Shown in pieces: positions 5,744 through 29,071 of a stretch of DNA of 64,000 nucleotides. The notes beneath the pieces are model-generated. The model saw only the letters and a program-made list of their open reading frames with translations, made no database searches and was not told the origin of the DNA. This DNA is from Nesterenkonia halophila (GTDB taxonomy: Bacteria; Actinomycetota; Actinomycetes; Actinomycetales; Micrococcaceae): the NCBI RefSeq assembly GCF_009467795.1, contig NZ_WIAX01000001.1:62001-126000 (forward strand), given 5' to 3'. Every line of letters begins with the position of its first letter. The stretch's first letter is position 1. A program made the position numbers and the translations under genes.

Positions 5744-8365
<2,622 letters not shown>

Positions 8366-8526
8366 GCCGACTGATCGGCCGTGCCGCCTTCCCCGGCTCG
8401 ACGCTGCGCCCGGACCCTTCCACGGCTCTGCGGGGCGGCGTGTGCCGCTCAGCCTCCCGGGGCGTCTCGTCGTCTCGGCCGCGCTGAGGATGTCAGAAAC
8501 GACTTCGACGCAGAAGGACACCACCC

Positions 8527-9693
8527 GTGGACCTGTATGAGTACCAGGCGCGCGATCTGTTCGAGGCACACGGGGTTCCCGTGCTGCCCGGCATCGTGGC
8601 GCACACCCCGGAAGAGGCGAAGGCGGCGGCCGAGAAGATCGGCGGCGGCATCGTCGTCGTGAAGGCGCAGGTGAAGGTCGGAGGCCGCGGCAAGGCCGGC
8701 GGCGTGAAGCTCGCCAAGAGCCCCGACGAGGCCTACGAGCACGCGCAGGCCATCCTCGGCATGGACATCAAGGGTCACACCGTCCACCGTCTGCTGATCG
8801 CCGCCGGCGCCGAGATCGCCGAGGAGTACTACTTCTCGATCCTTCTGGACCGTGCGAACCGCGACTACCTGGCCATGTGCTCCAAGGAGGGCGGCGTCGA
8901 GATCGAGCAGCTCGCCGTGGAGTCGCCGGAGAAGCTGGCTCGGGTGAGCATCGACCCCAACGATGGGATCGACGCCGCCAAGGCCTCCGAGATCGCCGAG
9001 CAGGCCGGCTTCGACGCCGACGAGGTCCCCGCCCTAGCCGAGGTGTTCCAGCAGCTGTGGACCACCTTCCAGAAGGAGGACGCCACCCTGGTGGAGGTCA
9101 ACCCGCTGGTGAAGACCGGCGAGGGGAAGATCATCGCCCTCGACGGCAAGGTCTCCACCGATGACAACGCCGACTTCCGCCAGCCCGGGCACGCCGAGCT
9201 CGTCGACGAGCAGGCCGAGGACCCGCTGGAGGCCAAGGCGAAGGCCAACGACCTCAACTACGTCAAGCTCGACGGTCAGGTCGGCATCATCGGCAACGGC
9301 GCCGGCCTGGTCATGTCCACCCTCGACGTCGTCGCCTACGCCGGCGAGGACCACGGCGGCGTGAAGCCGGCGAACTTCCTGGACATCGGCGGCGGCGCCT
9401 CGGCGGAGGTCATGGCCAACGGCCTCGACGTCATCCTGGGCGACGACCAGGTCGAGTCGGTCTTCGTCAACGTCTTCGGCGGCATCACCTCCTGCGACCA
9501 GGTGGCCACCGGCATCGTGAAGGCGCTGGAGATCCTGGGCGACGCGGCGACCAAGCCGCTGGTCGTGCGCCTCGACGGCAACAACGTCGAGGAGGGCCGG
9601 CGCATCCTCGCCGAGGCGGCCCACCCGCTGGTCACCAACGCCGACACCATGGACGCAGGCGCCGACAAGGCCGCCGAGCTGGCGAACAAGTAA
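8527..9693 (+). CDS. sucC: Succinate-CoA ligase (ADP-forming) beta subunit
   Basis: A 388-residue beta subunit of succinyl-CoA synthetase, the TCA-cycle step that makes ATP from succinyl-CoA. It starts at GTG ([20 protein letters not shown]) behind AAGGA. The N-terminal ATP-grasp half contains [20 protein letters not shown]. The C-terminal CoA-ligase half has [26 protein letters not shown] and [16 protein letters not shown], the family's phosphohistidine-docking and subunit-contact loops. sucD begins 16 bases after the stop, so the two are one transcription unit. The length equals the standard. Confidence 0.97.
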
Positions 9694-9709
9694 GGACTGG
9701 GACTCGAGA

Positions 9710-10621
9710 ATGTCTATCTACCTGAACAAGGACTCCAAGGTCATCGTCCAGGGCATCACCGGCGGCGAGGGCTCCAAGCACACCCGTCTGATGCTCAAGG
9801 CCGGGACGAACATCGTCGGCGGCGTCAACGCCCGCAAGGCCGGGACCACTGTGGCCCACCAGGACAAGGACGGCGCCGACGTCGAGCTGCCCGTCTTCGG
9901 CTCGGTCTCCGAGGCCATGGCCGAGACCGGCGCGGACGTCTCGGTGGCCTTCGTGCCGCCGAAGTTCGCCAAGGCCGCGGCGGAGGAGGCCATCGAGGCC
10001 GGCATCGGTCTGCTGGTGGTCATCACTGAGGGCATCCCGGTGCAGGACGCCGCGGAGTTCTACAACCTGACGCTGACCAAGACCGACGCCGACGGCAATC
10101 CGGTCACCCGGATCATCGGGCCGAACTGCCCGGGCATCATCACCCCCGGCGAGGCGCTGGCCGGCATCACCCCGGCCTCGATCACCGACGCCGGCCCGAT
10201 CGGCCTGGTCTCGAAGTCCGGCACGCTGACCTACCAGATGATGTACGAGCTGCGGGACATCGGGTTCTCCACCTCCATCGGGATCGGCGGCGACCCGGTC
10301 ATCGGCACCACGCACATCGACGCGCTGGAGGCCTTCGAGAACGACCCGGAGACGACGGCGATCGTGATGATCGGCGAGATCGGCGGCGACGCCGAGGAGC
10401 GCGCGGCCGAGTACATCAAGGCCAACGTCTCCAAGCCGGTCGTCGGCTACGTTGCCGGCTTCACCGCCCCGGAGGGCAAGACGATGGGCCACGCCGGCGC
10501 CATCGTCTCCGGCTCTTCCGGCACCGCCTCCGCGAAGAAGGAGGCCCTCGAGGCCGCGGGCGTGAAGGTCGGCAAGACCCCGTCCGAGACCGCGAATCTG
10601 CTGCGCGAGGTCATCGGCTGA
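9710..10621 (+). CDS. sucD: Succinate-CoA ligase alpha subunit
   Basis: A 303-residue alpha subunit that binds CoA and carries the phosphorylated His. The Rossmann-type CoA-binding start reads [24 protein letters not shown]. The middle has [12 protein letters not shown] and [12 protein letters not shown], and the active-site His lies in [12 protein letters not shown]. It forms the alpha2beta2 or alpha-beta enzyme with SucC, which is immediately upstream. Two strong hairpins follow the stop. There are no oddities. Confidence 0.97.
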
Positions 10622-12650: not shown

Positions 12651-12970
12651 GTCTCGATTGTTCCCCCGATGGCGCCGGCGGCGAGGCCCGCTCCGGCACT
12701 GTGACGAACTTTCGGTATCCCTAAAGCTCGTGGAACACAGTCCTTCTCATATCAGCGGCGAGCATCGATCGAGTGCTGCCTTCCGGCCTGCCTGGGGGAT
12801 TCTGGCCGTCCCTGCTCTCCGTAATTGTTGGAGAGTCAACATGCAGTCTCGCGGCGAGCTGCTTCTCATGATTCTCGTTGATCGCTGCAATGACAGTGAA
12901 GTACGGATGATTTGTGTCATAACGCCCGGTGGATGCGTGCTCTATAGGCCGACCCCGAAGGTTGAAAGGG
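12651..12970. other. Intergenic stretch upstream of the sulfoglycolysis operon
   Basis: About 320 bases with no gene I can support. Base composition drops here compared with the flanking core DNA, marking the left edge of the acquired segment. A 6-bp stem CTCTCC/GGAGAG (12815-12835) encloses an AT-rich loop. Short open frames exist on both strands, but they have no family resemblance and poor start signals. The 5' end of the VIT1 gene is on the left. Confidence 0.5.
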
Positions 12971-13006
12971 TTGACATTCGAACATGACGTGTCTAATATC
13001 ACACTT
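12971..13006 (+). promoter_or_regulatory. Near-consensus promoter of the sulfoglycolysis operon
   Basis: TTGACA (12971-12976) and TAATAT (12994-12999) are separated by exactly 17 bases, which is almost the ideal housekeeping sigma promoter. An imperfect inverted repeat, GTGT-N8-ACAC, overlaps the -10 box and could be an operator for the DeoR regulator at the operon's end. The expected transcript start near 13006 gives a leader of about 30 bases before the ATG at 13039. Confidence 0.72.
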
Positions 13007-13038: not shown

Positions 13039-14292
13039 ATGACCTGGCTGACATCTCCCGCACATGCACGCTGGTTGGAGGCTGAAGCGGACCGAATCTT
13101 CGAGTTCGGGCGCAATGCCCACGTTCCGACCGGTTTCGGCTGGTTGAGCAACAGTGGGGAGGTTCGGACGGACGTGCCGACTCAGCTCTGGATCACGAGT
13201 CGCATGGTGCATGTGTATTCTCTGGCCTCGCTCCTGGGCCGTCCCGGGGCGGGCGCTCTGGCCGACCACGGCATCGAGGCATTGCAGCGCGTCTTCTGGG
13301 ACGCGCAACACGGAGGCTGGTATGCCTCGGTCACCGAGGGCGGGCCCCATGACCGCAGCAAGCCCGGCTATGCACACTTCTTCGTGCTGCTTGCCGCGGC
13401 CAGCGCGACGGCCGCGCGGCGTCCCGGTGGTGACGACCTCCTCCGTCAGGCGATCGCCATCATTGAGCGCTACTACTGGTCCGAAGGCGAGCAGGGGTGT
13501 CTCGACTCGTGGGACGAGAGCTTCTCGGAGACTGAGGCGTACCGCGGGGGCAATGTGAACATGCATGCGGTCGAGGCCTTCCTGGTCACCGCCGACGTCA
13601 CCGGCGATCAAAAATGGCTTGACCGGGCCTTGGCGATCTCCCAGCGCGTCATCCATGACGTCGCGCGGAAGAACGAGTACCGCGTGGTGGAGCACTTCGA
13701 CGAGAGCTGGCAGCCGCTCTTCGACTACAACCGGGACAACCCCGTCCATCGATTCCGGGCCTATGGGGGTACCCCGGGGCACTGGACGGAGTGGAGTCGA
13801 CTTCTGCTGTCGCTTCGGGCCAGCCTGCTGGCACGGGGAGAGGAGGCGCCGGAATGGCTGGTGACGGATGCCCGGGGCGTCTTCGACGCCGCGATCAGGG
13901 ATGCCTGGGAGCCGGATGGGAAGCCCGGATTCGTCTACACCGTGGACTGGAACGGGAAGCCTGTCGTACGTGAGCGCATTCGGTGGGTCGTGGTCGAAGC
14001 GATGGGCGGTGCCGCCGCTCTCCACCAGGTGACCGGGGAGTCCCGCTACGACGCGTGGTACCAGCGGTTCTGGGACTATGCCCGCACCTACCTCATGGAC
14101 TTCGACGGAGGGTCCTGGCACCAGGAGCTGGATCCGGACAACAACGTCACGAGTGAAGTGTGGGACGGCAAACCTGACATCTACCACCTCATGCACTGCC
14201 TCGTAGTGCCGCGGCTGCCACTGGCTCCCGCTATGGCTCCTGCTCTGGCCGCAGGACTGCTGGATGGGAGGGACGACAATGGCCGAAGTTGA
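13039..14292 (+). CDS. yihS: Sulfoquinovose isomerase, YihS-like (AGE family)
   Basis: A 417-residue (alpha/alpha)6-barrel isomerase of the N-acylglucosamine 2-epimerase family. Start: the ATG at 13039, behind GAAAGGCGG and about 30 bases after the promoter; an ATG at 13015 has no ribosome site. As I recall E. coli YihS, the active-site residues fall at identical positions here: W51 and R55 (QLWITSRM), H176 (NVNMHAVEA), H248 ([11 protein letters not shown]), W316, Q362 and the catalytic H383 (DIYHLMHC). YihS converts sulfoquinovose to 6-deoxy-6-sulfofructose (and mannose/glucose to fructose more weakly). It is the first gene of the operon and overlaps the kinase gene by 14 bases. A mannose isomerase is the alternative, but the neighbours favour sulfoquinovose. 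Confidence 0.88.
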
Positions 14293-15229
14293 GCCCCCTC
14301 GTCTCGTGTTCGCCGGTGTCGCGACGGAGGATGCCTTGGCCGCTGTCGACCAGTACCCGGGGCCGGATGAACGGGTGCTGGCCCAGGACTTGTCGTTCGG
14401 CGGTGGAGGGCCGGCCGCGACGGCCGCTGTGGCCGCGGCGAGACTCGGCATGTCGGCGGCGATCGTCGCCTCGGTCGGCGACGACGCCGCCGGGGTGACG
14501 GTCCGGGAGCGCCTGGCCGACGAAGGCGTCGACGTCTCCGGCCTCCATGTCGTCGACGGAGCGCCGACGTCGCGCAGCATCGTGATCGTCAGCGGCCCGG
14601 AACGACAGCGGGCGATCATCAATCAGAAAGGCCCTGAGCTAGATCTGGAGCGCAACCCGAGGGGAAGGGAGCTTCTGGAGGGAGCGGACTGGGTGCACGT
14701 CGATCAGCACGGGTGGCGCGAAGTCGGGGAACATCTTCGGAGTCGCGCAATGGGCGGGGAGACGTCCCGCCCGGCCCTGTCCGTCGATGACGGCAATCCC
14801 ATCCCAGGGCTAGTGCTTCGCGGTGTGGGACTGTATGCGCCCACCTTGATTCAGCTTCGGGAGCGATACGGAGATCAGCTGGGCATCGATCAGCTGATCC
14901 GGGCAGCACTGGATGAAGGTGCTGAACGCGTCGTGGTTACCGCGGGCGGGGAAGGGGCATACGCAGCGGACCGAGAGACGGACGTCGTTCACGTGAAATC
15001 CCCGCCCGTCGAGATTCGAAGCACGCTCGGCGCCGGAGACGTCTTTCACGGGGCTCTCCTCGCTGCATACACCCACGCCTCCCACGGTGCGATCGGGGCG
15101 GGCATCGCCGCCGTGGCCGCCTACGCGACGACAGTCGCCACCTTGTCATGTCGAGGGCTCGATGGAAGAAGCCGGATCCCGGACCACCATGAGGTGATTC
15201 GACACCTCGACGAGCAGTACATCTATTGA
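14279..15229 (+). CDS. yihV: PfkB-family sugar kinase, probable sulfofructose kinase (YihV-like)
   Basis: A 316-residue ribokinase/PfkB kinase. The N-terminal signature [17 protein letters not shown] (about 41-57) and the C-terminal [13 protein letters not shown] with catalytic D254 both resemble YihV, which phosphorylates 6-deoxy-6-sulfofructose to the 1-phosphate. Start: the ATG at 14279 after GGGAGG, inside the end of the isomerase gene, which suggests translational coupling. The aldolase gene begins nine bases after its stop. Sequence alone would allow another ketose kinase (fructose, tagatose-6-P); the flanking YihS- and YihT-like genes decide the call. Confidence 0.84.
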
Positions 15230-15238
15230 GAGGCCAGT

Positions 15239-16132
15239 ATGACTACTTCCACGAATGAAGCCGTGAACTTCAGACTTGCACCGCTGCGACGAGAATCGGG
15301 CGGATTTGCGATGCTTGCCGTCGACCAGCGCGAGGCGCTGCGAAACATGCTCGGAGAGCATCGGGCAGGCCCCGTGTCAGACGCTGATCTGCAGGAGTTC
15401 AAGCTGACGGCCACACGCGCGCTCACCCCATTCGCCTCTGCGGTGCTGATCGATCGTCAATTCGCTCTCGACGCAGCGATCGAGCAGGGGGCCGTGGCGG
15501 ACTCGTGCGGGTTGATCGCGTCGGCCGACCATTTCGAACCGGCCCATGGCGAACTCGTCGGCGAAGTCACGATCGATCACCAGATCGCCCCGGGATCTCT
15601 GCGGGAGAGGGGAGTGGTGGCTCTCAAGCTCCTCGTCCTCTACCGGCCGGACCAGCCCCCGTCCGCACGCATCGAGATGGTCCACGAGTTCCTCGCGATC
15701 TGTGGGGCAGCCGGAGTCGCAAGCATCGTCGAGCCGGTCTCACGAGCGCCTCTCGACGGGCGCGACTGGGATTGGAATGAGGGAGTGCTGGCAGCGGCGG
15801 AGGAACTCGGGTCTCTCGGAGCCGACCTCTACAAGGGTGAAGTCCCTTATCGCGGAGTCGCCTCGGAGGAGGAGCTGCGCTCAGCATACGCAGAGATGAA
15901 CAGGAGCATCGATGGCGAATGGGTCGTGCTCTCCTCCGGGGTCGACCAGGAGACCTTCCCGCCGGCGGTTCGTATCGCCTGCGAGGAGGGTGCCTCGGGC
16001 TTCCTCGCCGGGCGAGCCGTGTGGGCGGCGTCTCTGCAGGCCGCCGACATTGAGCATGACCTGCAGGAGAACGCTACGTGGCGACTGGAACGTCTCGTCG
16101 ATGTCGTGGATGCGACGGTCGGCTCCAGGTAG
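15239..16132 (+). CDS. yihT: Sulfofructose-1-phosphate aldolase, YihT-like (class I)
   Basis: A 297-residue class I aldolase of the LacD/YihT family. It opens with RRESGGFAMLAVDQREALRNM, close to YihT as I recall it, and continues with SAVLIDRQF, ALKLLVLYRPDQPPSARIEM and SIVEPVSRAPLDG. The Schiff-base Lys is expected at K199 in GADLYKGEVP. SSGVDQETFPPAVRIACEEG and GFLAGRAVWA complete the barrel. YihT splits 6-deoxy-6-sulfofructose 1-phosphate into DHAP and 3-sulfolactaldehyde. LacD-type tagatose-bisphosphate aldolase is the main alternative; the SGGFAMLAVDQRE and SGFLAGRAVWA stretches look more like YihT. It sits third in the operon. Confidence 0.86.
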   Translation: MTTSTNEAVNFRLAPLRRESGGFAMLAVDQREALRNMLGEHRAGPVSDADLQEFKLTATRALTPFASAVLIDRQFALDAAIEQGAVADSCGLIASADHFEPAHGELVGEVTIDHQIAPGSLRERGVVALKLLVLYRPDQPPSARIEMVHEFLAICGAAGVASIVEPVSRAPLDGRDWDWNEGVLAAAEELGSLGADLYKGEVPYRGVASEEELRSAYAEMNRSIDGEWVVLSSGVDQETFPPAVRIACEEGASGFLAGRAVWAASLQAADIEHDLQENATWRLERLVDVVDATVGSR

Positions 16133-16206
16133 TCCGCAGAAGAGGCGGGTGCCGGCGCGACTTGAGGTCGGGCTGGGCACGAGCGACCCGATTAAGGGAG
16201 TGCGTG

Positions 16207-17508
16207 ATGTATAGGAATGCCAGAGCTACGAGTATGGACAGGCGGGGGTTTCTCGGCGTGGCCGGGGCCTTCGGAGCGGCAGGGCTGATGTCTGCCTGCG
16301 CGGGCCCCGGGAGCACCAGTTCTGGTGCCGGAGGGTTCACGACTGACGATGTGGCCACGGGAGAGGTCTCCTTCGCCCATTGGCGAGGAGAGGACCGGAA
16401 GATCTTCAAGGAGTTGATCGCTGACTTCACGAAGGTCGAATCCGAGATTTCCGTAGCCCAGGACATCTCTCCCTCGGACGACTACGAAGCGCAGGCGCTC
16501 AGAAGGATGCGTAACGGGTCCGTCGGAGACGTCGCGCCAGCCTTCCGTGGAGCGCAGTTCGAGAGCTTCGTGGAGTCGGGCTTCTTCGTGGATCTTGAGC
16601 CTACGGACTTGACCTCCCGGTACAAGGCCGAGCTGATCACGGCGGGGAGCGCTGACGGCGTCCAGTACGGGTACCCATACCAGATCGTGTTCAACGACCC
16701 GATCGCGAACCTCGACATCCTAGAGAAAGCAGGGTATCCCGAACCTGCCGGGGACTGGGACTCCTACCTGGACATGCTCGACAAGATCCAGTCCCAGGGG
16801 GTTACACCGATCGCCATGCCCGGGGCGGATGCCGGCAATGCCGGGCAGCTCATCAACCCCATGATCATGAATCTCGGCCCGACAGAGGACATGTGCGCGA
16901 AGATCGAGTCTGGCGAATACAAACTCACCGATGACTGGTTCCTCGAGATGCTGAGGAAGTATGGCGAGCTGGGTGATTACGTGCAGCCGAATGCCTCCGG
17001 CACGGCTGCGGAGCCCGCACAGCAGATGTTTGCGACGGGCGAGGCCGCGATCCTGGCCACGGGCAGCTATCACATGGCCTCCGTGCGGTCGCTCGGGGCG
17101 GAATTCCCCATCGACATCGCTCCGCCCATCACGAGTGATCCTGGACAGGCCGTATACCTCGCCGCCTACAACGCGACCTTCATCCTGGGCATCAATTCGG
17201 CCTCTGAGGTGCAAGGCGCCGGGATCGCTTGGCTGGAGTATCTGAGCCGGCCCGAGGTTGCCGGCGCCTATGCCGACGGAACGGCGCAGTTCTCGCCGGT
17301 GAAGGGCGTCGAATATGAGAATCCTGATCTCGACCGTGTGTCCTCGTGGCTCGAGAAAGACATTCTCCTCGCCCCGCGATACCAGTTCACAGACCTCGAC
17401 ATGCGTGCCGCAGTGGAGGACTCGTGCTTGCAGGCCCTCACCGGCACCGAACCAGAGAAGGCAGCTGAAGATGCCCAGCACATCGTTGATCAGCGAATCG
17501 ACTCCTGA
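16207..17508 (+). CDS. ABC transporter sugar-binding lipoprotein (sulfoquinovose/SQ-glycoside import)
   Basis: A 433-residue extracellular solute-binding protein of family 1. The start at 16207 follows AAGGGAG with six-base spacing. An internal MDRRGFLGVAGAFG carries a twin-arginine pattern, and LMSAC is a lipobox, so it is probably a Tat-exported lipoprotein anchored outside the membrane. Mature residues show the usual two-lobed pattern: VSFAHWRGEDRKIFKELIADF, YPYQIVFNDPIANLDILEKAGY, MFATGEAAILATGSYHMASV. Given the operon, the ligand is expected to be sulfoquinovose or sulfoquinovosyl glycerol, but the specificity is inferred from the neighbours. Its coding end overlaps the first permease gene. 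Confidence 0.85.
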   Translation: MYRNARATSMDRRGFLGVAGAFGAAGLMSACAGPGSTSSGAGGFTTDDVATGEVSFAHWRGEDRKIFKELIADFTKVESEISVAQDISPSDDYEAQALRRMRNGSVGDVAPAFRGAQFESFVESGFFVDLEPTDLTSRYKAELITAGSADGVQYGYPYQIVFNDPIANLDILEKAGYPEPAGDWDSYLDMLDKIQSQGVTPIAMPGADAGNAGQLINPMIMNLGPTEDMCAKIESGEYKLTDDWFLEMLRKYGELGDYVQPNASGTAAEPAQQMFATGEAAILATGSYHMASVRSLGAEFPIDIAPPITSDPGQAVYLAAYNATFILGINSASEVQGAGIAWLEYLSRPEVAGAYADGTAQFSPVKGVEYENPDLDRVSSWLEKDILLAPRYQFTDLDMRAAVEDSCLQALTGTEPEKAAEDAQHIVDQRIDS

Positions 17509-18469
17509 AGCGGGCGAGTCCGAGGGGGCGTCGCCTGTCCTCGGAGCCCCACGCGCGCGGAAGGTGATGAAGGACAGGCGCCGGAGATCGTCTCGGCGTA
17601 CACCGTGGGCATACTTCGTTTTTCCGCTGCCGGCATTCGTCCTGTATGTCGTCTTCTTCGTGATTCCGACGCTGCAGACCGTGCAGTATTCGATCACGAA
17701 CTGGGACGGCTACAGCGCGAACTATGATCTTGTCGGTCTCGACAACTTCGCGCGAGCTGTCACAGGCGATGCTCTGTTCACGAACGCCTTCGTGAACAAC
17801 ATGAAGTTCATGATGGTGGTGGTCGTCGGTCAGACCGTGTTGGCACTGATCCTGTCGGTCCTGCTCGTGAGAAATACGAAGACGACGATCTTCCTCCGGG
17901 CGCTCTACTTCTTCCCGACCATCTTGTCATCGGTCTCAGTGGGGTTCATCTGGAAGTTCGTCTACGATCCGAACTTCGGCGTGATCAACGGCCTGCTCGG
18001 CCGGCTCGGCCTGTCTGAAGCCCAGTCATCGTTCCTCGGAAATGATGACCAGGCGATCTATTGGCTGTCCATCACGCAGATCTGGTTCCACGCCGGGATG
18101 ATGGTCGTGATCTTCGTCGCCGGGCTCCAGGCAATCCCGGCCGAGCTGTACGAATCCGCGGAGGTCGACGGGGCCAGCAGATGGCAGCAATTCTGGTCGA
18201 TCACATGGCCGCTGATCGCTCCTGCGATGTCGATCGTTGTCGCATACACGACGATCCAGTCGTTCAAAGCGTTCGATCTGGTCCTGAGCATCTCGGGAAA
18301 TCCGCCCAGTTCCTCCCTCGACATCCTGTCGACGCGCATCTATTCGTCCTTCGCTAACTCTGAGATGGGATACGCGGCGACAGAATCAGTGCTGTTCATC
18401 GCAGCCATCGTTGCCATCACATTCGCGCTCAGGCGGTTCCTGCGCCTGGTGCAGAGGGGAGAGTCATGA
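17471..18469 (+). CDS. Sugar ABC transporter permease 1 (MalF/UgpA type)
   Basis: A 332-residue inner-membrane subunit with six predicted helices, starting with WAYFVFPLPAFVLYVVFFVI. The EAA loop that contacts the ATPase is LYESAEVDGASRWQQFWSITWPLI. The chosen ATG overlaps the binding-protein gene by 38 bases and has AGAAGG nine bases upstream. A start at 17567 (MKDRRRRSSRRTPW) would remove a polar tail of 32 residues and is also plausible. It overlaps the second permease gene by four bases (ATGA), typical of co-translated transporter subunits. Confidence 0.88.
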   Translation: MPSTSLISESTPEAGESEGASPVLGAPRARKVMKDRRRRSSRRTPWAYFVFPLPAFVLYVVFFVIPTLQTVQYSITNWDGYSANYDLVGLDNFARAVTGDALFTNAFVNNMKFMMVVVVGQTVLALILSVLLVRNTKTTIFLRALYFFPTILSSVSVGFIWKFVYDPNFGVINGLLGRLGLSEAQSSFLGNDDQAIYWLSITQIWFHAGMMVVIFVAGLQAIPAELYESAEVDGASRWQQFWSITWPLIAPAMSIVVAYTTIQSFKAFDLVLSISGNPPSSSLDILSTRIYSSFANSEMGYAATESVLFIAAIVAITFALRRFLRLVQRGES

Positions 18470-19281
18470 CGGGAAAGGTGCTGGGCTTCGGTATCCGAAG
18501 CATCTACGCGGTCCTCATCGTCATCCCGCTCCTGGTCGTCCTGTTTGGCAGCTTCAAGACGACCTCGGAGATCTTCAAGAGCCCCTTCGCCCCACCCGCG
18601 TCGCCCAGTCTGGCGAACTATGCGGAGGCTTTCAGCGGAGGGAGCCTCATCGGGGCGTTCGCCAACAGTGCCATGATCACGACCACGTCCGTGTTCCTGA
18701 CCTTGTTCCTGGGGTCGATGGCGGCCTATGGCCTCTCCCGGATTCCAGGCTGGCGGGGCTGGCTGCTCTTCGGGTTCATCGTGATCGGAATGTCGGTCCC
18801 CGTCCAGGCCAACATGATTCCTCAGTATGTGTTGTTCGGGAGTCTGGGGTTGCTCGACACCCAATTAGGGCTGATCATCATCAATATTGTGGTGACGCTC
18901 CCGGTATCCGTGTTCATCATGGGCGGGTTCATGCGTACCCTCCCGGCGGAGCTCTTCGAGGCTGCCGAGGTGGACGGGGCAGGTCCCTGGCGGAACTACT
19001 ACCAGATCGCCCTTCCCCTTTCGGCGCCGTCGATCGCCGCGACCGCGACGTTCCTATTCGTGATGCATTGGAACGATCTGCTGTATCCGCTGCTCTTCAT
19101 CTCGTCGGAGGAGAAGATGACTCTCCCCCTGGCGCTGCTTCGTTTCCAGGGTGAGTACATGACGAACTATCCGCTCCTCTTCGCCGGAGTGGTGCTGACA
19201 TCGATCCCCGTCGTCGTGGCCTATGTGTTCCTCCAGAGATTCTTCGTCGCCGGAATCACCGGCGGAGCCGTGAAGGGGTGA
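18466..19281 (+). CDS. Sugar ABC transporter permease 2 (MalG/UgpE type)
   Basis: A 271-residue partner permease with six membrane segments, beginning SIYAVLIVIPLLVVLFGSFK. The EAA motif reads LFEAAEVDGAGPWRNYYQIALPL. The length is standard for MalG-like subunits. With the preceding permease and lipoprotein it forms a CUT1 importer. No ATP-binding gene is present in this operon or elsewhere in the window, so the importer must borrow a shared ATPase (MsmK/MsmX type) encoded elsewhere. The glycosidase gene begins four bases after the stop. Confidence 0.9.
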   Translation: MTGKVLGFGIRSIYAVLIVIPLLVVLFGSFKTTSEIFKSPFAPPASPSLANYAEAFSGGSLIGAFANSAMITTTSVFLTLFLGSMAAYGLSRIPGWRGWLLFGFIVIGMSVPVQANMIPQYVLFGSLGLLDTQLGLIIINIVVTLPVSVFIMGGFMRTLPAELFEAAEVDGAGPWRNYYQIALPLSAPSIAATATFLFVMHWNDLLYPLLFISSEEKMTLPLALLRFQGEYMTNYPLLFAGVVLTSIPVVVAYVFLQRFFVAGITGGAVKG

Positions 19282-19285
19282 GCTG

Positions 19286-21580
19286 ATGAGTACACATCGC
19301 AGAGAGGCGGAGGCCAAAATGCTTCGCCATGTCGAGCGGGTCACGGCGACCGCCGAAGCAGTCTGGGTTGATGTCCAGGCTGTCTCGGCGACCACACTGG
19401 GAGCGATGCCTGGATGGCTCACGGGTGAGCCCTTCGAGGACCAGGGTGTCGAGACGACCATGCCGAATCTCCCGGAGGACATCACTGTGCCTCCCCTGGA
19501 TCCTGAGGAATGGCGGCTCAAGATCTCGGTCCACGGACCCCGCACCGTGAGGCTGGTCGCGGCTCCCCGAGGAAGCCGCGTCTTCGAAGAGAAAGCCGGG
19601 TGGCTCGGCATCGTCACGGACGAATCGTACGAGTCCTACCAGGTGCATGAGGCCGATGACATCGTCGAGGTATCCGGTGAGTCGTTCAGCCTGACCGTCA
19701 CCAAATATCCGTTTGCCCTGGTGGTCAAGAACACGGAGGGGCGAACGGTGGCCAGGACATCGGACCGGCTGCGTCAGGTGGCCGGTTTTCCGGTCGCGCC
19801 GCCGATCCTCCACGGGCAGCGAGGGTTGTCGTTGAACATGGAGCTCGCCGGCGATGAGAGTATCCTCGGTTTCGGTGAGATGTTCGGTCGGGTCGAGAAG
19901 AACGGGCAGCATCTCGAGCTTCGGACGGACGATGCCTTGGGAACGGGTACAGGGCTTTGTTACAAGCCGGTGCCGGTCTGGCATTCATCGGCCGGATACG
20001 GGGCGTTCATCAACACTGGAGCCGCCGTCACCGCTGATGTCGGACACCGCCAGCCCAGTGTGCTCGGGCTCGGTGTCGAAGACGAAGCGATCGACCTCTT
20101 CCTGTTCATCAGCGACGATCCGGCACAGCGGCTCGCTGACTACACGACGTTGACGGGGCCGTCCGTGGTGCCGCCTGTATGGGCGTTCGGATATTGGATG
20201 GGGCGGTGCCGCTATCACTCGCGGCGCGAGATGGTCGACGTCTCCGAGGGGCTGACAGCTCGGGGGATTCCCTGCGATGTACTGCACCTGGACCCGGATT
20301 GGCTCGTCGTCGACCGTCTCAACACGGACTTCATATGGAACGAGGAGCGCTTCGGGAGTCGGCATGAGTTCATCATGGATCTCTTTCAGTCCGGCCGACG
20401 GCTCTCCCTCTGGGAATTGCCCTATGTGGATCCTGCCTCGCCCGTGTATCCGGAGCTCGAGTCCCGCGGCTATCTCGTCCGGAGCTCCGCGGACGAGCCG
20501 GCCGCACTGGAAGGGACTCCGACGCCCGACGGGCGTTCCAGGGGGCTCATCGACTTCAGCAACCCGGATGCTCGTCGATGGTGGAAGGATCAGCATCGGG
20601 CGTTCCTCGATGACGGAGTGGCAGTCTTCAAGACAGATTTCGGCGAGGGATTCCCCCGAGAGGGAGTCGTGGCTGCGGATATCCCGTCCACACACCTCCA
20701 CAATCTCTATCCGCTCTGGTACAACGCGGCTACCAGCGAGGCCATCGCGGAGCTGACCGATCGGGATCCGCTGGTCTGGGGGCGGTCCGGGTGGGCTGGT
20801 TCCCATCGGTACCCCGGGCAGTGGGGTGGAGACGCCGAATCGACGACGGCCGGAATGCGAGCGACGCTGCGCGGGGGCCTCTCCTATGCGCTTTCAGCGC
20901 CGGGATTCTGGAGCCACGACATCGGGGGGTTCTTCGGGCCGGAGCTCACCCCTGGGCTCTACGTGCGATGGACGCAGTTCGGAGCATTCTCCCCCCTCAT
21001 GCGAGCACATGGCTTGAGACCTCGTGAGCCATGGGAATTCGGCGAGCAAGCTCTTCATGTGACGCGTGAGTGGATCCGGCGGCGTTACGAGATGCTTCCG
21101 TACCTCTGGCAGCAGGCTCACATGTCCGTGCGCGAAGGCCTGCCGATGATGCGTCCGTTGTACGTGGCGTTCCCCCAGGACCCGGTGGCACGCGTCGTCG
21201 ACGACACCTTCATGCTCGGGCAGGAACTTCTCATCGTCCCGGTCTTCGACGATTCTGCCGAGCCGGTCTCGCGTACCTTCTACGTCCCGGACGGCGAGTG
21301 GCTCGACATGTTCACTGGAGAGCATTTCGCCGGGGGGCAGCACCATACGGTGCACCTGCCTCTCGATGCGATGCCGGTGCTCGTGCGTTCTGGCACCTCG
21401 ATACCCGCACTCGAGATGCCGGACGGAGCATCGAACACCGATGACGTGCTGTACCAGCCCTGGCATCTGAGGGTGTTCGGAGGGCGCAACACCGTGCGGG
21501 GGGCCCGTCCCCGCGACCTGGTGGATTTCCATGGCGACCCGGTGGACACGAGGAGTCTCCCGGCGCGACACGTGTTCTGA
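19286..21580 (+). CDS. GH31 glycosidase, candidate sulfoquinovosidase of YicI-like type
   Basis: A 764-residue retaining alpha-glycosidase of family GH31 with no signal peptide, so it acts in the cytoplasm. The N-terminal beta domain (to about 290) precedes the barrel, which opens PPVWAFGYWMGRCRYHSRREM. The nucleophile is D451 in FKTDFGEGFP and the acid/base is D516 in GQWGGDAEST, followed by GFWSHDIGGFFG. These motifs match YicI-like alpha-xylosidases. In E. coli YihQ the Arg/Trp pair that holds the sulfonate sits in a stretch like GIRMTSFGKRVMWNW; the equivalent here, DWLVVDRLNTDFIWN, is different. Its place between the importer and the dehydrogenase suggests release of sulfoquinovose from a glycoside, but alpha-xylosidase or alpha-glucosidase activity cannot be excluded. 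Confidence 0.82.
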   Translation: MSTHRREAEAKMLRHVERVTATAEAVWVDVQAVSATTLGAMPGWLTGEPFEDQGVETTMPNLPEDITVPPLDPEEWRLKISVHGPRTVRLVAAPRGSRVFEEKAGWLGIVTDESYESYQVHEADDIVEVSGESFSLTVTKYPFALVVKNTEGRTVARTSDRLRQVAGFPVAPPILHGQRGLSLNMELAGDESILGFGEMFGRVEKNGQHLELRTDDALGTGTGLCYKPVPVWHSSAGYGAFINTGAAVTADVGHRQPSVLGLGVEDEAIDLFLFISDDPAQRLADYTTLTGPSVVPPVWAFGYWMGRCRYHSRREMVDVSEGLTARGIPCDVLHLDPDWLVVDRLNTDFIWNEERFGSRHEFIMDLFQSGRRLSLWELPYVDPASPVYPELESRGYLVRSSADEPAALEGTPTPDGRSRGLIDFSNPDARRWWKDQHRAFLDDGVAVFKTDFGEGFPREGVVAADIPSTHLHNLYPLWYNAATSEAIAELTDRDPLVWGRSGWAGSHRYPGQWGGDAESTTAGMRATLRGGLSYALSAPGFWSHDIGGFFGPELTPGLYVRWTQFGAFSPLMRAHGLRPREPWEFGEQALHVTREWIRRRYEMLPYLWQQAHMSVREGLPMMRPLYVAFPQDPVARVVDDTFMLGQELLIVPVFDDSAEPVSRTFYVPDGEWLDMFTGEHFAGGQHHTVHLPLDAMPVLVRSGTSIPALEMPDGASNTDDVLYQPWHLRVFGGRNTVRGARPRDLVDFHGDPVDTRSLPARHVF

Positions 21581-21648
21581 CCGCCGCGGGGCTCCGGCGC
21601 GCGTTCGGGCCCGTGGGGCAGGCAGGACTGATGAGGACAAGGAGTGAC

Positions 21649-23079
21649 ATGAACAGGATACTTCCGACGACGCTCATCGATGGTGAGTGGAGAGCACTTG
21701 ACCAGCGCCGAGAGGTGAGGAATCCCGCGACGGGAAGCGTCGTGGGAACGGTCGGGTGGGGAGGTGAGAGCGAGGCGCGAGAGGCTGCGGACGCGGCGGA
21801 GCGCGCCTTTCGCGGATGGGCTGCACGAAGCGGTCGTGAGCGCGCCGATCTGCTGCTGCGGGCGGCGGAGATTCTCGACCAGCGTTCCGCGGAGACCGCC
21901 CAACTGCTCGCATCGGAAGCGGGAAAGCGTCTCCCGGAGGCGGCCGGCGAGATCAAGCTCTCGGGAGAGTATCTTCGCTGGTTCGCGGAGGAGGCCAGAC
22001 GTCCGCTCGGCTCGGTCCACAGTCCCGAGGGTGATGGCAGGCGGCATATGACCACCCGCTCCCCATCTGGAGTGGTCGCGAGCCTGACATCGTGGAACTT
22101 CCCGGTATCTCTGCAGGCCCGGAAGATCGCACCCGCACTCGCCGCGGGATGCACTGTCGTCGCCAGAGTGTCCGAGAAGGCGCCGCTTGCCGCAACGGAG
22201 CTGATCCGGGCGCTTGATGAGGCCGGCCTTCCTTCCGGGGTGGTCAATATCGTGCATGGTCCAGGGCGACAGGTCACCCGAGAGCTCCTCAATCACCGAG
22301 CGGTGAGGGTGGTGACCTTCACCGGCTCGACTGCGGTCGGAAGCGACATCATGGCTCAGGCGGCTCCGCGCGTCGTGAGGCCCCTCCTGGAGCTCGGAGG
22401 GGACGCTCCCTTCATCGTGTTCGGAGATGCGGACGTGGATCATGCCGTCGACGCCGCCGTCGTCGCGAAGACGAGGAACTCCGGGCAGTCCTGCATCGGG
22501 GCCAACCGGTTCCTGGTCGAGGAGAGTATTCATGATGAGTTCGTCGCCAAGCTTGCGAGGCAGCTCGATGCCCTGCGGCTCGGCGATGGTTCGACGGAGC
22601 CCGTGGCGGATCTGGGACCCCTGATCGACGCCGAGGCCGTCTCAGGAGTCCAGGCGATGGCCGATGATGCCGTGGAACGCGGCGCCTACGAGGCGACCAA
22701 GCCGCGTGAGGTGCCTCAGACCGGTTCGTTCCTGCGACCAATGCTGTTCACCGATGTCCCCGACGATTCCCTGCTGGCAACGCAGGAAGTGTTCGGGCCG
22801 GTGGCTGGGGTGTTCCGTTTCACCGCCGAGGACGAAGCAATTGCGCGCGCAAATGCCACGGAGATGGGTCTCGCGGCCTATATCTTCACCGGCGAGGTGT
22901 CGACCGCGTGGCGAGTGGCGGATCGGCTCGACGCCGGGATCGTGGGGGTCAATGATCCTGTGCCGTCGGTAGCGTTCGCGCCGATGGGAGGCGTCAAGCA
23001 GTCGGGCATCGGACGCGAGGGCGGTCGCGTCGGGCTGGAGGAGTTCACGGAGCCGAAGTACCTTGCGTGGCGTCTCTGA
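21649..23079 (+). CDS. Aldehyde dehydrogenase, probable sulfolactaldehyde dehydrogenase
   Basis: A 476-residue NAD(P)-dependent aldehyde dehydrogenase of the succinate-semialdehyde dehydrogenase branch. The ATG at 21649 follows AAGGAG closely; upstream GTG and ATG codons lack such a site. Key residues: N150 (LTSWNFPVSLQARK), E248 (LLELGGDAPF) and nucleophile C282 (NSGQSCIGANRF). The C-terminus FAPMGGVKQSGIGREGG is conserved. Sulfolactaldehyde dehydrogenases known from other sulfoglycolytic bacteria belong to this branch and give 3-sulfolactate with NAD(P)H. The operon has no YihU-like reductase, so oxidation and not reduction is predicted. Semialdehyde specificity is the alternative. Confidence 0.84.
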   Translation: MNRILPTTLIDGEWRALDQRREVRNPATGSVVGTVGWGGESEAREAADAAERAFRGWAARSGRERADLLLRAAEILDQRSAETAQLLASEAGKRLPEAAGEIKLSGEYLRWFAEEARRPLGSVHSPEGDGRRHMTTRSPSGVVASLTSWNFPVSLQARKIAPALAAGCTVVARVSEKAPLAATELIRALDEAGLPSGVVNIVHGPGRQVTRELLNHRAVRVVTFTGSTAVGSDIMAQAAPRVVRPLLELGGDAPFIVFGDADVDHAVDAAVVAKTRNSGQSCIGANRFLVEESIHDEFVAKLARQLDALRLGDGSTEPVADLGPLIDAEAVSGVQAMADDAVERGAYEATKPREVPQTGSFLRPMLFTDVPDDSLLATQEVFGPVAGVFRFTAEDEAIARANATEMGLAAYIFTGEVSTAWRVADRLDAGIVGVNDPVPSVAFAPMGGVKQSGIGREGGRVGLEEFTEPKYLAWRL

Positions 23080-23097
23080 GGGCGGGGAACTGGCACC

Positions 23098-23844
23098 ATG
23101 AATGTGGAGGAGCTGCTTGCGCTGGCGGGGCTGGTCGGGGCCGTCCTCCTCGGCTCGGCATTGCAACGCACCACGGGCGTCGGTTTCGCCCTCGTCGCCG
23201 CACCGTTCTTGGTGGCGCTCTTGGGCCCCTTCAACGGGATCCTCGTGGTCAACCTGTTCGGTATGCTAACTGCCCTGCTGGTCTTCTTCCGGGTATTCCG
23301 CCGCGTCGAGTACAAGCGTGTCTTCTGGCTGCTGCTCCCTGCACTTGTTGCGACGATCCCCGGTGCGTGGGTGGCCGTCAACGTGCCGCCGGCCGAGCTC
23401 TCCGTCGTAGTCGGTGTACTCATCATCATTGCTCTGGCAGGGTCGTTCCTCATCCGGAGACGGACCTTCGCGAGTGGGAGGGGCGGAGCGCTGGCGGGCG
23501 GACTGGCGTCTGGGTTCATGAACGTCACCGCCGGAGTCGGAGGGCCAGCCATCACGGCCTATGCTGTAGCAAGCAGATGGCCGCAGCACCAATTCGCCGC
23601 CAGTGTGCAGCTCTATTTCTGCGTCTTGGGGGCAGGGTCCATGCTCGCCAAATTCTCCTTACCGACTCTCGACGCTCCCCAGTGGGCCGGGACGGCGGTC
23701 GGCCTCGTCGCTGGGATCATCGCGGGAGAGGTTCTCGGTAGGCGGGTGTCAGCCGTACTCGCTCGCCGAGTCGTCATCGGCCTCGCCTTCCTCGGCGCAA
23801 TGATCGTCATGCTCCAGGGGCTCGTCGATCTTGCCGGCTCGTAG
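23098..23844 (+). CDS. TauE/SafE-family anion exporter, probable sulfolactate exporter
   Basis: A 248-residue membrane protein with about eight hydrophobic segments in two repeats. The repeats show family marks: LQRTTGVGFALVAAPFLVALLG in the first half and GFMNVTAGVGGPAITAYAVA in the second. TauE/SafE proteins export sulfite or organosulfonates such as sulfoacetate and sulfolactate. Coming 18 bases after the dehydrogenase gene, it most likely removes sulfolactate; sulfite export would need a desulfonating enzyme, and none is present. A paralogue lies at 28313-29071. Confidence 0.85.
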   Translation: MNVEELLALAGLVGAVLLGSALQRTTGVGFALVAAPFLVALLGPFNGILVVNLFGMLTALLVFFRVFRRVEYKRVFWLLLPALVATIPGAWVAVNVPPAELSVVVGVLIIIALAGSFLIRRRTFASGRGGALAGGLASGFMNVTAGVGGPAITAYAVASRWPQHQFAASVQLYFCVLGAGSMLAKFSLPTLDAPQWAGTAVGLVAGIIAGEVLGRRVSAVLARRVVIGLAFLGAMIVMLQGLVDLAGS

Positions 23845-23879
23845 GGTGTGACGGCTGACGTAAATTAGGGAGGTAGATA

Positions 23880-24671
23880 ATGAGGAGGGGTACCACCGTG
23901 GATAACACCGGGGATCTCGCTCCACGTCAGCGTGAAATCGTCCAGCGTCTCAACGAGCGTGGGTTCGTCTCGACCTCCCAACTCGCAGAGATCTTCGGGG
24001 TCTCGGACATGACGATTCGACGGGATGCCAGGACGCTCGAGCGTGTCGGTGCAGCCAGCATCGTGCATGGCGGCCTGATGCTCCCGCACGGCACGATTCA
24101 TACTGGTGGGTTCGCCGAACGAGCACGTCATAACTTCGCTGCGAAGAAGCGCATTGCAGCCGCATGCCTGGAACTGCTCGACAACCGCCAGCGCGTGGTG
24201 ATCGATGCCGGAACGACGGCCTTCGAAGTGGCCTATGCCCTCCCGAAGACATTCGAAGGCACGATCATCACGCACTCAGCCCCCGTCTTCCAGCTAGCGC
24301 TGCGGCTACCTGCGGCCACGACGATCAGCCTCGGTGGTGAGCTCTTGCAGGACAGCCAGGCGTTCATCGGTGAACTGGCCGAGTCCAACCTCCGGCGACT
24401 GCGTGCAGAGGTCGCGATCATCGGAACGGCGGCCATGAATGAGCACGGCATCTACATCGAACGAAACCTCGAGCTGTCGACGAAGTTGGCTCTCATGGAC
24501 GCCGCGGACCAACGAGTGCTCGTGGTGACGCATGACAAGATGGGGTCGTCAGAGCTCGTGTACCTCTGCGGGCTGGACCGGATTGACATCGTCGTCACGG
24601 ATGCGGATCCGCCGGAGAAGATGGCCACGGCTCTCCATGACCATGGAGTCCGCACGATCGTTGCTCACTAG
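23880..24671 (+). CDS. DeoR-family transcriptional regulator (YihW/CsqR-like role)
   Basis: A 263-residue regulator. The N-terminal helix-turn-helix is LAPRQREIVQRLNERGFVSTS then SDMTIRRDARTLERVG and IVHGG, the DeoR signature. The C-terminal sugar-phosphate sensor domain has VIDAGTTAFEVAYAL, ISLGGELLQDSQAFIGELAE and a late VVTDADPPEKM. Two starts are possible: ATG at 23880 after GGGAGG, or GTG at 23898 after GAGGAGGGG. As the last gene of the operon it probably represses its own operon and is released by a pathway phosphate ester, by analogy with E. coli YihW. The stop overlaps the convergent phosphatase gene by four bases. Confidence 0.88.
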   Translation: MRRGTTVDNTGDLAPRQREIVQRLNERGFVSTSQLAEIFGVSDMTIRRDARTLERVGAASIVHGGLMLPHGTIHTGGFAERARHNFAAKKRIAAACLELLDNRQRVVIDAGTTAFEVAYALPKTFEGTIITHSAPVFQLALRLPAATTISLGGELLQDSQAFIGELAESNLRRLRAEVAIIGTAAMNEHGIYIERNLELSTKLALMDAADQRVLVVTHDKMGSSELVYLCGLDRIDIVVTDADPPEKMATALHDHGVRTIVAH

Positions 24672-28125: not shown

Positions 28126-28312
28126 GGCGCGGGCATGTCACCGGCGGCGGACCTCCGCGTGAGAGTTCGGTGAACCTCGGCCGAACAGTGCGAAGCTCGG
28201 CGCCCTCCGCGTAGAGTCGTCCAGTGTGTCGGCGTCGGGGATCACCGCGACGACGCACATGACGCGCGTCACATGGGACGCGCGACGGATCACCAGCACA
28301 GGAGGCGGAGCA

Positions 28313-29071
28313 TTGGACATCGCACTGACGGCCGGCATCGTGGGGTTCGTCCTGCTGGCGGCCACAGTGCAGCGGATCGCCGGGATGGGCTTCGGGATGA
28401 TCATGGCTCCGTTCATGGTCGTCCTGCTCGGCGCCCATGAAGGTGTGATGCTGGTGAACTTCATCAGCATCCTCGCCCCCGTCCTGGTGCTCCCGCGCGT
28501 CTGGCGTTCCATCCGCTGGGACAAGGTCCTCTGGATCAGCGTGCCCGCCGTGCTGGTCATGGCTCCCTCGGCCTGGGTCTCGGTGAAATCCCCGGCCGGC
28601 CCGCTCTACGTCCTCGTCGCCGCGCTGGTGCTGCTCGGGCTGGCCAGCTCGGTGGTGCTCAGCCGCGTGGCCACCCGCGTCGACGGCGAGGGGCGCACCG
28701 CCCAGGCCGTCACCGGCGTCGGCTCCGGCGTCGGCACCGTCCTCGGCGGAGTGGGCGGTCCGGCGGTGACCATCTATGCAGTGCTCGCCCGCTGGCAGGT
28801 GCGCGAGATGGTCGCCACGCTGCAGCCGGTGTGGATCCTGCTCTCGCTGTGCTCCTTCCTGATCAAGCTCTCGCTGGACGACGGTCAGCTGCCCGACATG
28901 CCGCTCTGGGGCTGGATCGGCGCGGCCGTCGCGATCGTCGTCGGCATCCTGGTCGGCGAGCGCATCCAGCGCCGGGTGCACGAGCAGTCGGTGCGCCGCT
29001 TCGTGGTGCTGCTGGCCTCGCTGGGCTCGGTCCTCGCGCTGGTCACCGGCGTGCAGCTGATGCTCGCCTGA
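28313..29071 (+). CDS. TauE/SafE-family membrane exporter, second copy
   Basis: A 252-residue membrane protein closely resembling the exporter at 23098. Shared patterns are VQRIAGMGFGMIMAPFMVVLLG and GVGGPAVTIYAVLARWQ. I prefer the TTG at 28313, because GGAGG lies seven bases before it and the first helix starts immediately; an ATG at 28226 would add 29 polar residues before the first helix. The substrate is unknown: sulfite, an organosulfonate or another small anion. GC is high here, unlike the copy in the operon, so it is probably the older resident gene. PerM follows on the same strand. Confidence 0.85.
   Translation: MDIALTAGIVGFVLLAATVQRIAGMGFGMIMAPFMVVLLGAHEGVMLVNFISILAPVLVLPRVWRSIRWDKVLWISVPAVLVMAPSAWVSVKSPAGPLYVLVAALVLLGLASSVVLSRVATRVDGEGRTAQAVTGVGSGVGTVLGGVGGPAVTIYAVLARWQVREMVATLQPVWILLSLCSFLIKLSLDDGQLPDMPLWGWIGAAVAIVVGILVGERIQRRVHEQSVRRFVVLLASLGSVLALVTGVQLMLA

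Follow-up and report, generated by a model that had tools for sequence, protein, structure and literature searches.

The window analysed here is a 64,000-nucleotide stretch of contig NZ_WIAX01000001.1 of the actinobacterium Nesterenkonia halophila. Ten genes, all on the + strand and separated by short or negative gaps, occupy positions 13039-24671 (Table 1). An earlier reading of the bare sequence (the original prediction) had described them as an operon for catabolism of the plant sulfosugar sulfoquinovose (SQ) by the sulfo-Embden-Meyerhof-Parnas (sulfo-EMP) route, and both the row of co-directional genes and the families it named were borne out by the open reading frames (ORFs) and by Pfam. 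The E values were 2.7e-124 for GlcNAc_2-epim (isomerase), 2.7e-35 for PfkB (kinase), 5.2e-28 for DeoC/LacD (aldolase), 5.7e-19 for SBP_bac_8 (binding protein) and 4.8e-149 for Aldedh (aldehyde dehydrogenase). In Ruania albidiflava (L032) the same ten genes are found in identical order and on the same strand, with 55-80% identity, the tenth being truncated where the fetched stretch ends. The arrangement is therefore not due to chance. Genes in this and other fetched loci were called by our own script, and the product lists there are approximate.

Table 1. Genes and regulatory features of the proposed sulfoquinovose operon, in window coordinates.
Feature	Position	Strand	Evidence
Candidate operator, perfect palindrome TGTTG-N6-CAACA, TGTTGGAGAGTCAACA	12826..12841	.	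occurs once without mismatch in the window
Degenerate second copy of the palindrome, GGTTGACATTCGAACA, over the -35 hexamer	12969..12984	.	sequence; putative functional link
Sigma-70-like promoter, TTGACA-N17-TAATAT	12971..12999	+	consensus scan: 1 found vs 0.3 expected in shuffles
YihS-like SQ isomerase (predicted), 417 aa	13039..14292	+	identity to YihS, best PDB hits, tree
YihV-like PfkB sulfofructose kinase (predicted), 321 aa	14264..15229	+	YihV structure 7ag6, 3.4e-18; 28.7% identity
YihT-like class I sulfofructose-phosphate aldolase (predicted), 297 aa	15239..16132	+	identity to YihT, PDB scores, tree
ABC solute-binding lipoprotein	16207..17508	+	Pfam SBP_bac_8/1; lipobox LMSAC in the sequence
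ABC permease 1 (UgpA-like)	17567..18469	+	Pfam BPD_transp_1; NCBIfam UgpA-like, below cut-off
ABC permease 2	18466..19281	+	Pfam BPD_transp_1
Proposed sulfoquinovosidase, GH31 glycosidase from a clade distinct from that of YihQ, 764 aa	19286..21580	+	Pfam GH31 TIM barrel 1.6e-83; clade, AU test, context
Aldehyde dehydrogenase, proposed sulfolactaldehyde dehydrogenase	21613..23079	+	Pfam Aldedh; residue spacing of RlGabD
TauE/SafE permease, proposed sulfolactate exporter	23098..23844	+	Pfam TauE 9.2e-21
DeoR-family regulator, proposed reader of the palindrome	23880..24671	+	Pfam HTH_DeoR, DeoRC; 27.8% identity to CsqR

The original prediction had treated the glycoside hydrolase of family GH31 as one more ordinary part of such an operon, a view that its ancestry does not sustain. 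Among solved structures it scored best with an alpha-glucosidase (5f7c, 1.7e-107) and with YicI (1.1e-87), the best entry of YihQ type being 5ohy at 1.3e-39. On the NCBIfam model NF007746 it reached 202.5 bits against a cut-off of 553, compared to 1247 bits for Escherichia coli YihQ, and on the alpha-xylosidase model 416 bits, below the cut-off of 606. Of 396 sampled genomes of the order, 227 had some GH31 match. Nine of these, that of the window included, reached at least 58% identity, and the next best had 38%. Sampling 396 genomes from the phylum yielded one more member (G562), with the next best at 43%. The ten proteins formed one clade (support 100), which in a 61-row tree fell on the side of YicI. 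This tree came from a short search and took every second near relative (22 of 43) from an alignment of 82 sequences, the fragment L186 having been dropped. When the ten were forced together with 20 YihQ rows, the likelihood was 227 lnL units worse (approximately unbiased (AU) test, p 5.6e-5). Orthology with YihQ is thus rejected by the structure scores, the tree, the AU test and the NF007746 score. The plasmid collection gave no match to this GH31 at E 1e-150.

In all ten genomes with the clade, the GH31 gene is accompanied by genes for a kinase like YihV, an aldolase like YihT, a binding protein and two permeases. The isomerase is YihS-like in two clusters (the window and R. albidiflava) and SqvD-like in eight. 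The Pfam scan of three of the eight gave Fucose_iso_C, in one case below the gathering score, and the other five were assigned by tblastn to one of these three at 65-80%; from family and place these L-fucose-isomerase-like proteins are inferred to be SqvD. As controls, nine next-nearest GH31 loci (36-43% identity) were chosen among the higher-scoring of many non-clade matches, one of them (L210) covering only 5.7 kb. These nine gave no YihS-, SqvD-, YihV- or YihT-like match at 1e-10; permease matches were seen in two (28-34%) and aldehyde dehydrogenase matches in two (28-37%).

This GH31 is missing from five YihS-type sulfo clusters: L037 and L040 of Microbacterium, L136 (genome G024) and L137 (G328) of the window's own family, and L044 from a metagenome-assembled genome (MAG). 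A GH188-like gene is present in four of the five, L037, L040, L136 and L137. For the L040 protein the top-scoring solved structures are those of SqgA, 8qc3 and 8qc2 (2.6e-137), and all four GH188-like proteins contain an RFPFLxK stretch, the spacing of which fits the sulfonate-binding residues R166, L170 and K172 of GH188 (PMC11465081). SqgA of GH188 is an NAD-dependent sulfoquinovosidase, experimentally shown to be such and found in a cluster of this kind (PMC10755693). With the L040 protein as query, G024 and G328 gave matches of 55-56% identity (~1e-139), whereas the ten GH31-clade genomes gave distant Gfo/Idh/MocA relatives, the best among the matches listed being 1.7e-21 (32%) and none exceeding 37%. 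That the GH31 clade and GH188 alternate in like clusters, among those compared, speaks most strongly for the clade carrying out the sulfoquinovosidase step.

Some further observations were made on these loci. Five canonical YihQ-like loci of the same phylum (L204-L208) had few pathway neighbors: weak SqvD-like and YihV matches in L206 (29% and 30%), an aldehyde dehydrogenase match of 36% in L204, a weak match to the GH188 query in L205 (23%), and no further pathway match in L207 and L208. The MAG locus L044, labelled Acidobacteria, has a sulfo-EMP cluster close to those of actinobacteria, with a different Gfo/Idh/MocA oxidoreductase and with neighbors that by eye resemble proteins of altronate-dehydratase/sulfolyase and dehydrogenase type. 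Three SqvD-type clusters (L131, L132, L134) have an extra gene between GH31 and the aldehyde dehydrogenase; the three are alike by eye, and the one scanned (L132) belongs to Peptidase_M24.

With respect to the active site, the catalytic residues D451 and D516 of the window protein align to D405 and D472 of YihQ. The sulfonate-binding set of YihQ we take to be Q262, Q288, R301, W304 and Y508. The Q288 position is occupied by D in the clade. R344, which is invariant in the ten members, falls on R301 in three of four alignments: the structure-based (mixed) alignment, which held two of the ten clade members, the profile alignment, which held six, and the BLAST match, which starts at 344 to 301. 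This is only suggestive that R344 is the counterpart of R301. R309, H311, N346 and R578 are among the clade-invariant positions that are rare in near relatives. An AlphaFold2 model of the protein (mean predicted local distance difference test score (pLDDT) 63.4, with the active-site loops 302-317 and 319-347 below 50) was too poor to locate these residues.

Taken together, the clade would most likely be a GH31 sulfoquinovosidase lineage of independent origin, the second in the family. We lean, with some reserve, towards the fuller account in which this actinobacterial enzyme arose from the alpha-xylosidase/alpha-glucosidase side, has a pocket centered on R344, with R309, H311, N346 and R578 as further candidates, and is exchanged with GH188, which would make it a third type of sulfoquinovosidase. 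The operon could instead be of sulfo-EMP type with a GH31 that is an ordinary alpha-glucosidase or alpha-xylosidase acting on the same plant material, SQ entering as the free sugar. The best-scoring structures, the 416 of 606 bits on the alpha-xylosidase model compared with 202 of 553 on that of YihQ, the position in the tree on the side of YicI and the absence of most of the YihQ sulfonate motif would all suit such an enzyme. It is nevertheless rather unlikely, since all ten clade members stand in sulfo-EMP or hybrid clusters and the search of their genomes found no close GH188, which four of five sister clusters have. Alternation with a sulfoquinovosidase is not what one would expect of a side activity, and none of the nine non-clade GH31 loci shows such a pathway gene.

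The assignment of the operon itself is carried mainly by the isomerase and the aldolase. Over 409 residues, in a gapless alignment of 1-409 on 1-409, the isomerase has 62.6% identity to E. coli YihS, and its best matches in the PDB are YihS. A tree of 68 isomerases, none of them a characterised mannose isomerase, placed it with YihS and the isomerases of sulfo clusters, apart from relatives without sulfo genes. Sulfo context was defined as a YihT- or YihV-like gene in the fetched stretch. It was found for 37 rows (the window and YihS counted in by definition) and not for 31, many of which span 4 kb, so that a more distant cluster would go unseen. L004 and L005, both among the 31, are shorter pieces of the same loci as L137 and L136, whose longer stretches hold sulfo clusters.

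The original prediction had pointed to seven residues shared with YihS, W51, R55, H176, H248, W316, Q362 and H383. The gapless alignment upholds their numbering, but as evidence for the pathway six of them fall away. R55, H176, H248, W316 and H383 were kept in all 31 isomerases outside sulfo context and W51 in 27 of them. Q362 was present in 37 of 37 sulfo-context isomerases versus three of 31 others (L004, L005, L006), in which H is usual, and it is the sole one of the seven that separates the two groups. The seven residues were accordingly rejected as proof of an SQ isomerase. In genome G393 (L006, L212) an isomerase of the YihS side, 58% identical to that of the window, has no match to a pathway kinase, aldolase or GH31 within 20 kb.

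Curated family models were of little help here. On NF051846 (D-mannose isomerase, cut-off 600 bits) the window protein scored 522 bits, E. coli YihS 501 and four other relatives 500-542, so this model cannot decide between mannose and SQ isomerases. It is the best model for YihS, which passes none of NCBIfam's, and NF007746, which YihQ does pass, is still named alpha-glucosidase. Automatic annotation of sulfo operons can for these reasons mislead.

The aldolase is 45.7% identical to YihT and matched YihT structures at 3.9e-76, compared to 6.8e-17 for tagatose-bisphosphate aldolases. A grouping with tagatose-type enzymes had been named in advance as part of the outcome that would overturn the pathway. 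In the 39-row aldolase tree the 20 sulfo-cluster rows, a grouping with YihT that includes the window, lay instead on one side of a branch (support 98). On the NCBIfam tagatose-bisphosphate aldolase model (cut-off 184 bits) the window protein and E. coli YihT each scored 137 bits.

For the kinase, YihV (7ag6, 3.4e-18) was the best of 51 solved relatives by a narrow margin, the next scoring 2.2e-16. Three residues of YihV, R138, D244 and N109, presumably have defined roles. Equivalents of D244 and N109 are kept, and the R138 position is not. In that region the kinases of these actinobacterial clusters share the motif VHxDxxG, and their recognition of the sulfonate may differ from that of YihV. 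On this sequence evidence the kinase appears to be a weaker leg of the pathway than the isomerase and the aldolase; the sulfo-EMP assignment of the original prediction is supported by the grouping with YihS and YihT in trees and structure scores.

The later steps are also represented. A homologue of the solute-binding protein was found in every cluster compared. In the aldehyde dehydrogenase W161-N162-F163, R170, R288 and C294 are spaced as are W162-N163-F164, R171, R289 and C295 of RlGabD, of which the W-N-F stretch and the two arginines have been proposed to bind sulfolactaldehyde (PMC10599462). Since both arginine positions also serve succinate semialdehyde in the human succinate semialdehyde dehydrogenase (PMC10599462), these residues support, and do not prove, sulfolactaldehyde as substrate. 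The enzyme is without a second cysteine, as is reported for the Arthrobacter enzyme (PMC10599462). YihU had no match in the window at 1e-10. By analogy with the proposal for Arthrobacter AK04 (PMC8873060), the TauE protein is proposed to be a sulfolactate exporter. A second TauE-like stretch (tblastn match at 28331 on the + strand, ORF 28226-29071), 39% identical to the TauE of the operon, lies ~4 kb downstream.

With respect to regulation, the palindrome TGTTG-N6-CAACA, with at most one mismatch and a spacing of 6, was found upstream in 13 of 15 sulfo clusters including that of the window (not in L137 and L044), in stretches hand-picked around the first gene or a divergent regulator gene and without a shuffled control. 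The fetched loci hold one to four sites each when spacings of 5 to 8 are counted. A homologue of the DeoR protein of the operon was present in every cluster compared, and this protein is likely the one that reads the palindrome.

The proposed course of events is as follows. The binding protein and the two permeases would bring SQ or SQ glycosides into the cell, presumably powered by a shared ATPase, and the GH31 enzyme would hydrolyse an alpha-SQ glycoside to free SQ. The isomerase would convert SQ to sulfofructose, the kinase would form sulfofructose-1-phosphate, and the aldolase would cleave this to dihydroxyacetone phosphate and sulfolactaldehyde. Oxidation by the aldehyde dehydrogenase would yield sulfolactate, which the TauE protein would export. 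The DeoR protein may repress the operon through the palindrome until a sulfosugar intermediate appears. We put the probability of this account, sulfo-EMP sulfoglycolysis with an oxidative end, a GH31 that frees SQ and repression by DeoR, at roughly 0.8.

A number of points weigh against it. The substrates of all the enzymes, the direction of transport and the repression are predictions from sequence. The ten genes include neither an SQ mutarotase nor an ATPase. Importers of this sort in actinobacteria often use a shared ATPase, and one is presumed here because the ten-gene set has none. The kinase is distant from YihV and altered at R138. In the GH31 protein T347 and F549 stand in place of W304 and Y508 of the YihQ motif (T or C, and F, in the clade). 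The 82-row alignment leaves the R301 position gapped and does not place R344 there, and for this reason the match of the two arginines is only suggestive. For the GH31 tree the program gave a warning about long branches that separate the YihQ side from all other rows. The dehydrogenase and TauE accompany seven of the ten GH31-clade clusters; neither is in the stretches of L129, L130 and L196. In L044 both this GH31 and GH188 are absent, which shows that a cluster can manage without them. The lack of GH188 in the host, where the best match to the query was 30% identical (9.5e-21), is weak if taken alone because the assembly (2.19 Mb in 29 contigs) is only 65.5% complete.

The operon might handle another sulfosugar, such as the glycosides of sulfofucose or sulforhamnose, with the GH31 as the matching glycosidase; an SqvD-like isomerase stands in place of YihS in eight of the ten clusters, and we are aware of no substrate test on enzymes of this GH31 clade. 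A sulfofucose pathway has in addition been published without an identified sulfofucosidase (PMC12421959). We consider this very improbable, in view of the identity of the isomerase to E. coli YihS (62.6%), the Entner-Doudoroff type of the sulfofucose route (PMC12421959) and the presence in sister clusters of GH188, which cuts SQ glycosides. That the genes are a mannose, fructose or tagatose operon merely resembling yih genes is suggested by the best NCBIfam models (D-mannose isomerase, 522 of 600 bits; tagatose-bisphosphate aldolase, 137 of 184) and is rejected as hardly credible, since both fail curated cut-offs that YihS (501) and YihT (137) fail likewise and the trees and PDB scores place the proteins with YihS and YihT.

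Members of this phylum were already known to have a sulfo-EMP pathway with ABC import, oxidation of sulfolactaldehyde and TauE. Arthrobacter isolates grow on SQ and release sulfolactate (Kaur et al. 2022, PMC8873060). The original prediction had set ABC import, oxidation of sulfolactaldehyde and the TauE exporter apart from the E. coli pathway and had asked for a literature check. The genes are present as stated, and the check showed that this Gram-positive variant has been published for Arthrobacter and other Actinobacteria (PMC8873060). In that paper the variant comprises YihS, YihV, YihT, a sulfolactaldehyde dehydrogenase in place of YihU, an ABC transporter and, in AK04, TauE, with no mutarotase and no identifiable sulfoquinovosidase in the account given there. 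The window resembles AK04 and AK01 in these genes, TauE being shared with AK04, and in the absence of a mutarotase. The missing sulfoquinovosidase was later found to be GH188 SqgA, present in AK01 (PMC10755693), and AK01 and AK04 have no GH31 sulfoquinovosidase, unlike the window, which has a GH31 of a separate lineage and in the assembly of which no close GH188 was found. The list of related clusters in PMC8873060 took only those without a YihQ homologue, so that the frequency of GH31 cannot be read from it.

The E. coli yih operon shares with the window an isomerase, a kinase and an aldolase of the same families, a GH31 and a DeoR-family regulator. It differs in that YihO, YihP, YihU and YihR have no match in the window, the GH31 of which lies outside the YihQ clade, and in that the window is proposed to oxidise, not reduce, sulfolactaldehyde. 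Hybrid sulfo-EMP/EMP2 clusters in which SqvD replaces YihS have been described in Actinobacteria (PMC10991401, PMC10599462). Eight of the ten GH31-clade clusters, with YihV-, YihT- and SqvD-like enzymes, resemble them, whereas the window and R. albidiflava retain a YihS isomerase.

The GH31 lineage may be the part of the operon that is new. In the passages of the open literature that were covered, no GH31 lineage outside YihQ is described for such clusters, subscription papers and supplements being outside the scope of the search. On the basis of their Pfam family, GH31 genes in the vicinity of genes for sulfolactaldehyde dehydrogenase have been counted as sulfoquinovosidases (PMC10599462, figure 7 legend). 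The window protein shares with the GH31 sulfoquinovosidases YihQ, SftG and SmoI the family, both catalytic aspartates and, in three of four alignments, the arginine at R301. It differs in its separate clade (p 5.6e-5), its failure on NF007746, the replacement of W304 and Y508 and a longer N-terminal region. Primers for yihQ and a YihQ reference tree serve as markers of SQ users (PMC13219744). If the proposal is right, a separate GH31 sulfoquinovosidase lineage could escape markers based on YihQ, a sulfonate pocket would have arisen twice on one scaffold, and the clade would supply glycoside cleavage in actinobacterial clusters without YihQ or GH188.

Directly upstream of the sulfo operon lie sucC and sucD, at 8527-10621 in the window and at ~7559-9656 in the R. 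albidiflava locus, with 77-79% identity. Their orientation relative to the operon is opposite in the two, and the shared neighborhood may reflect either common descent or chance.

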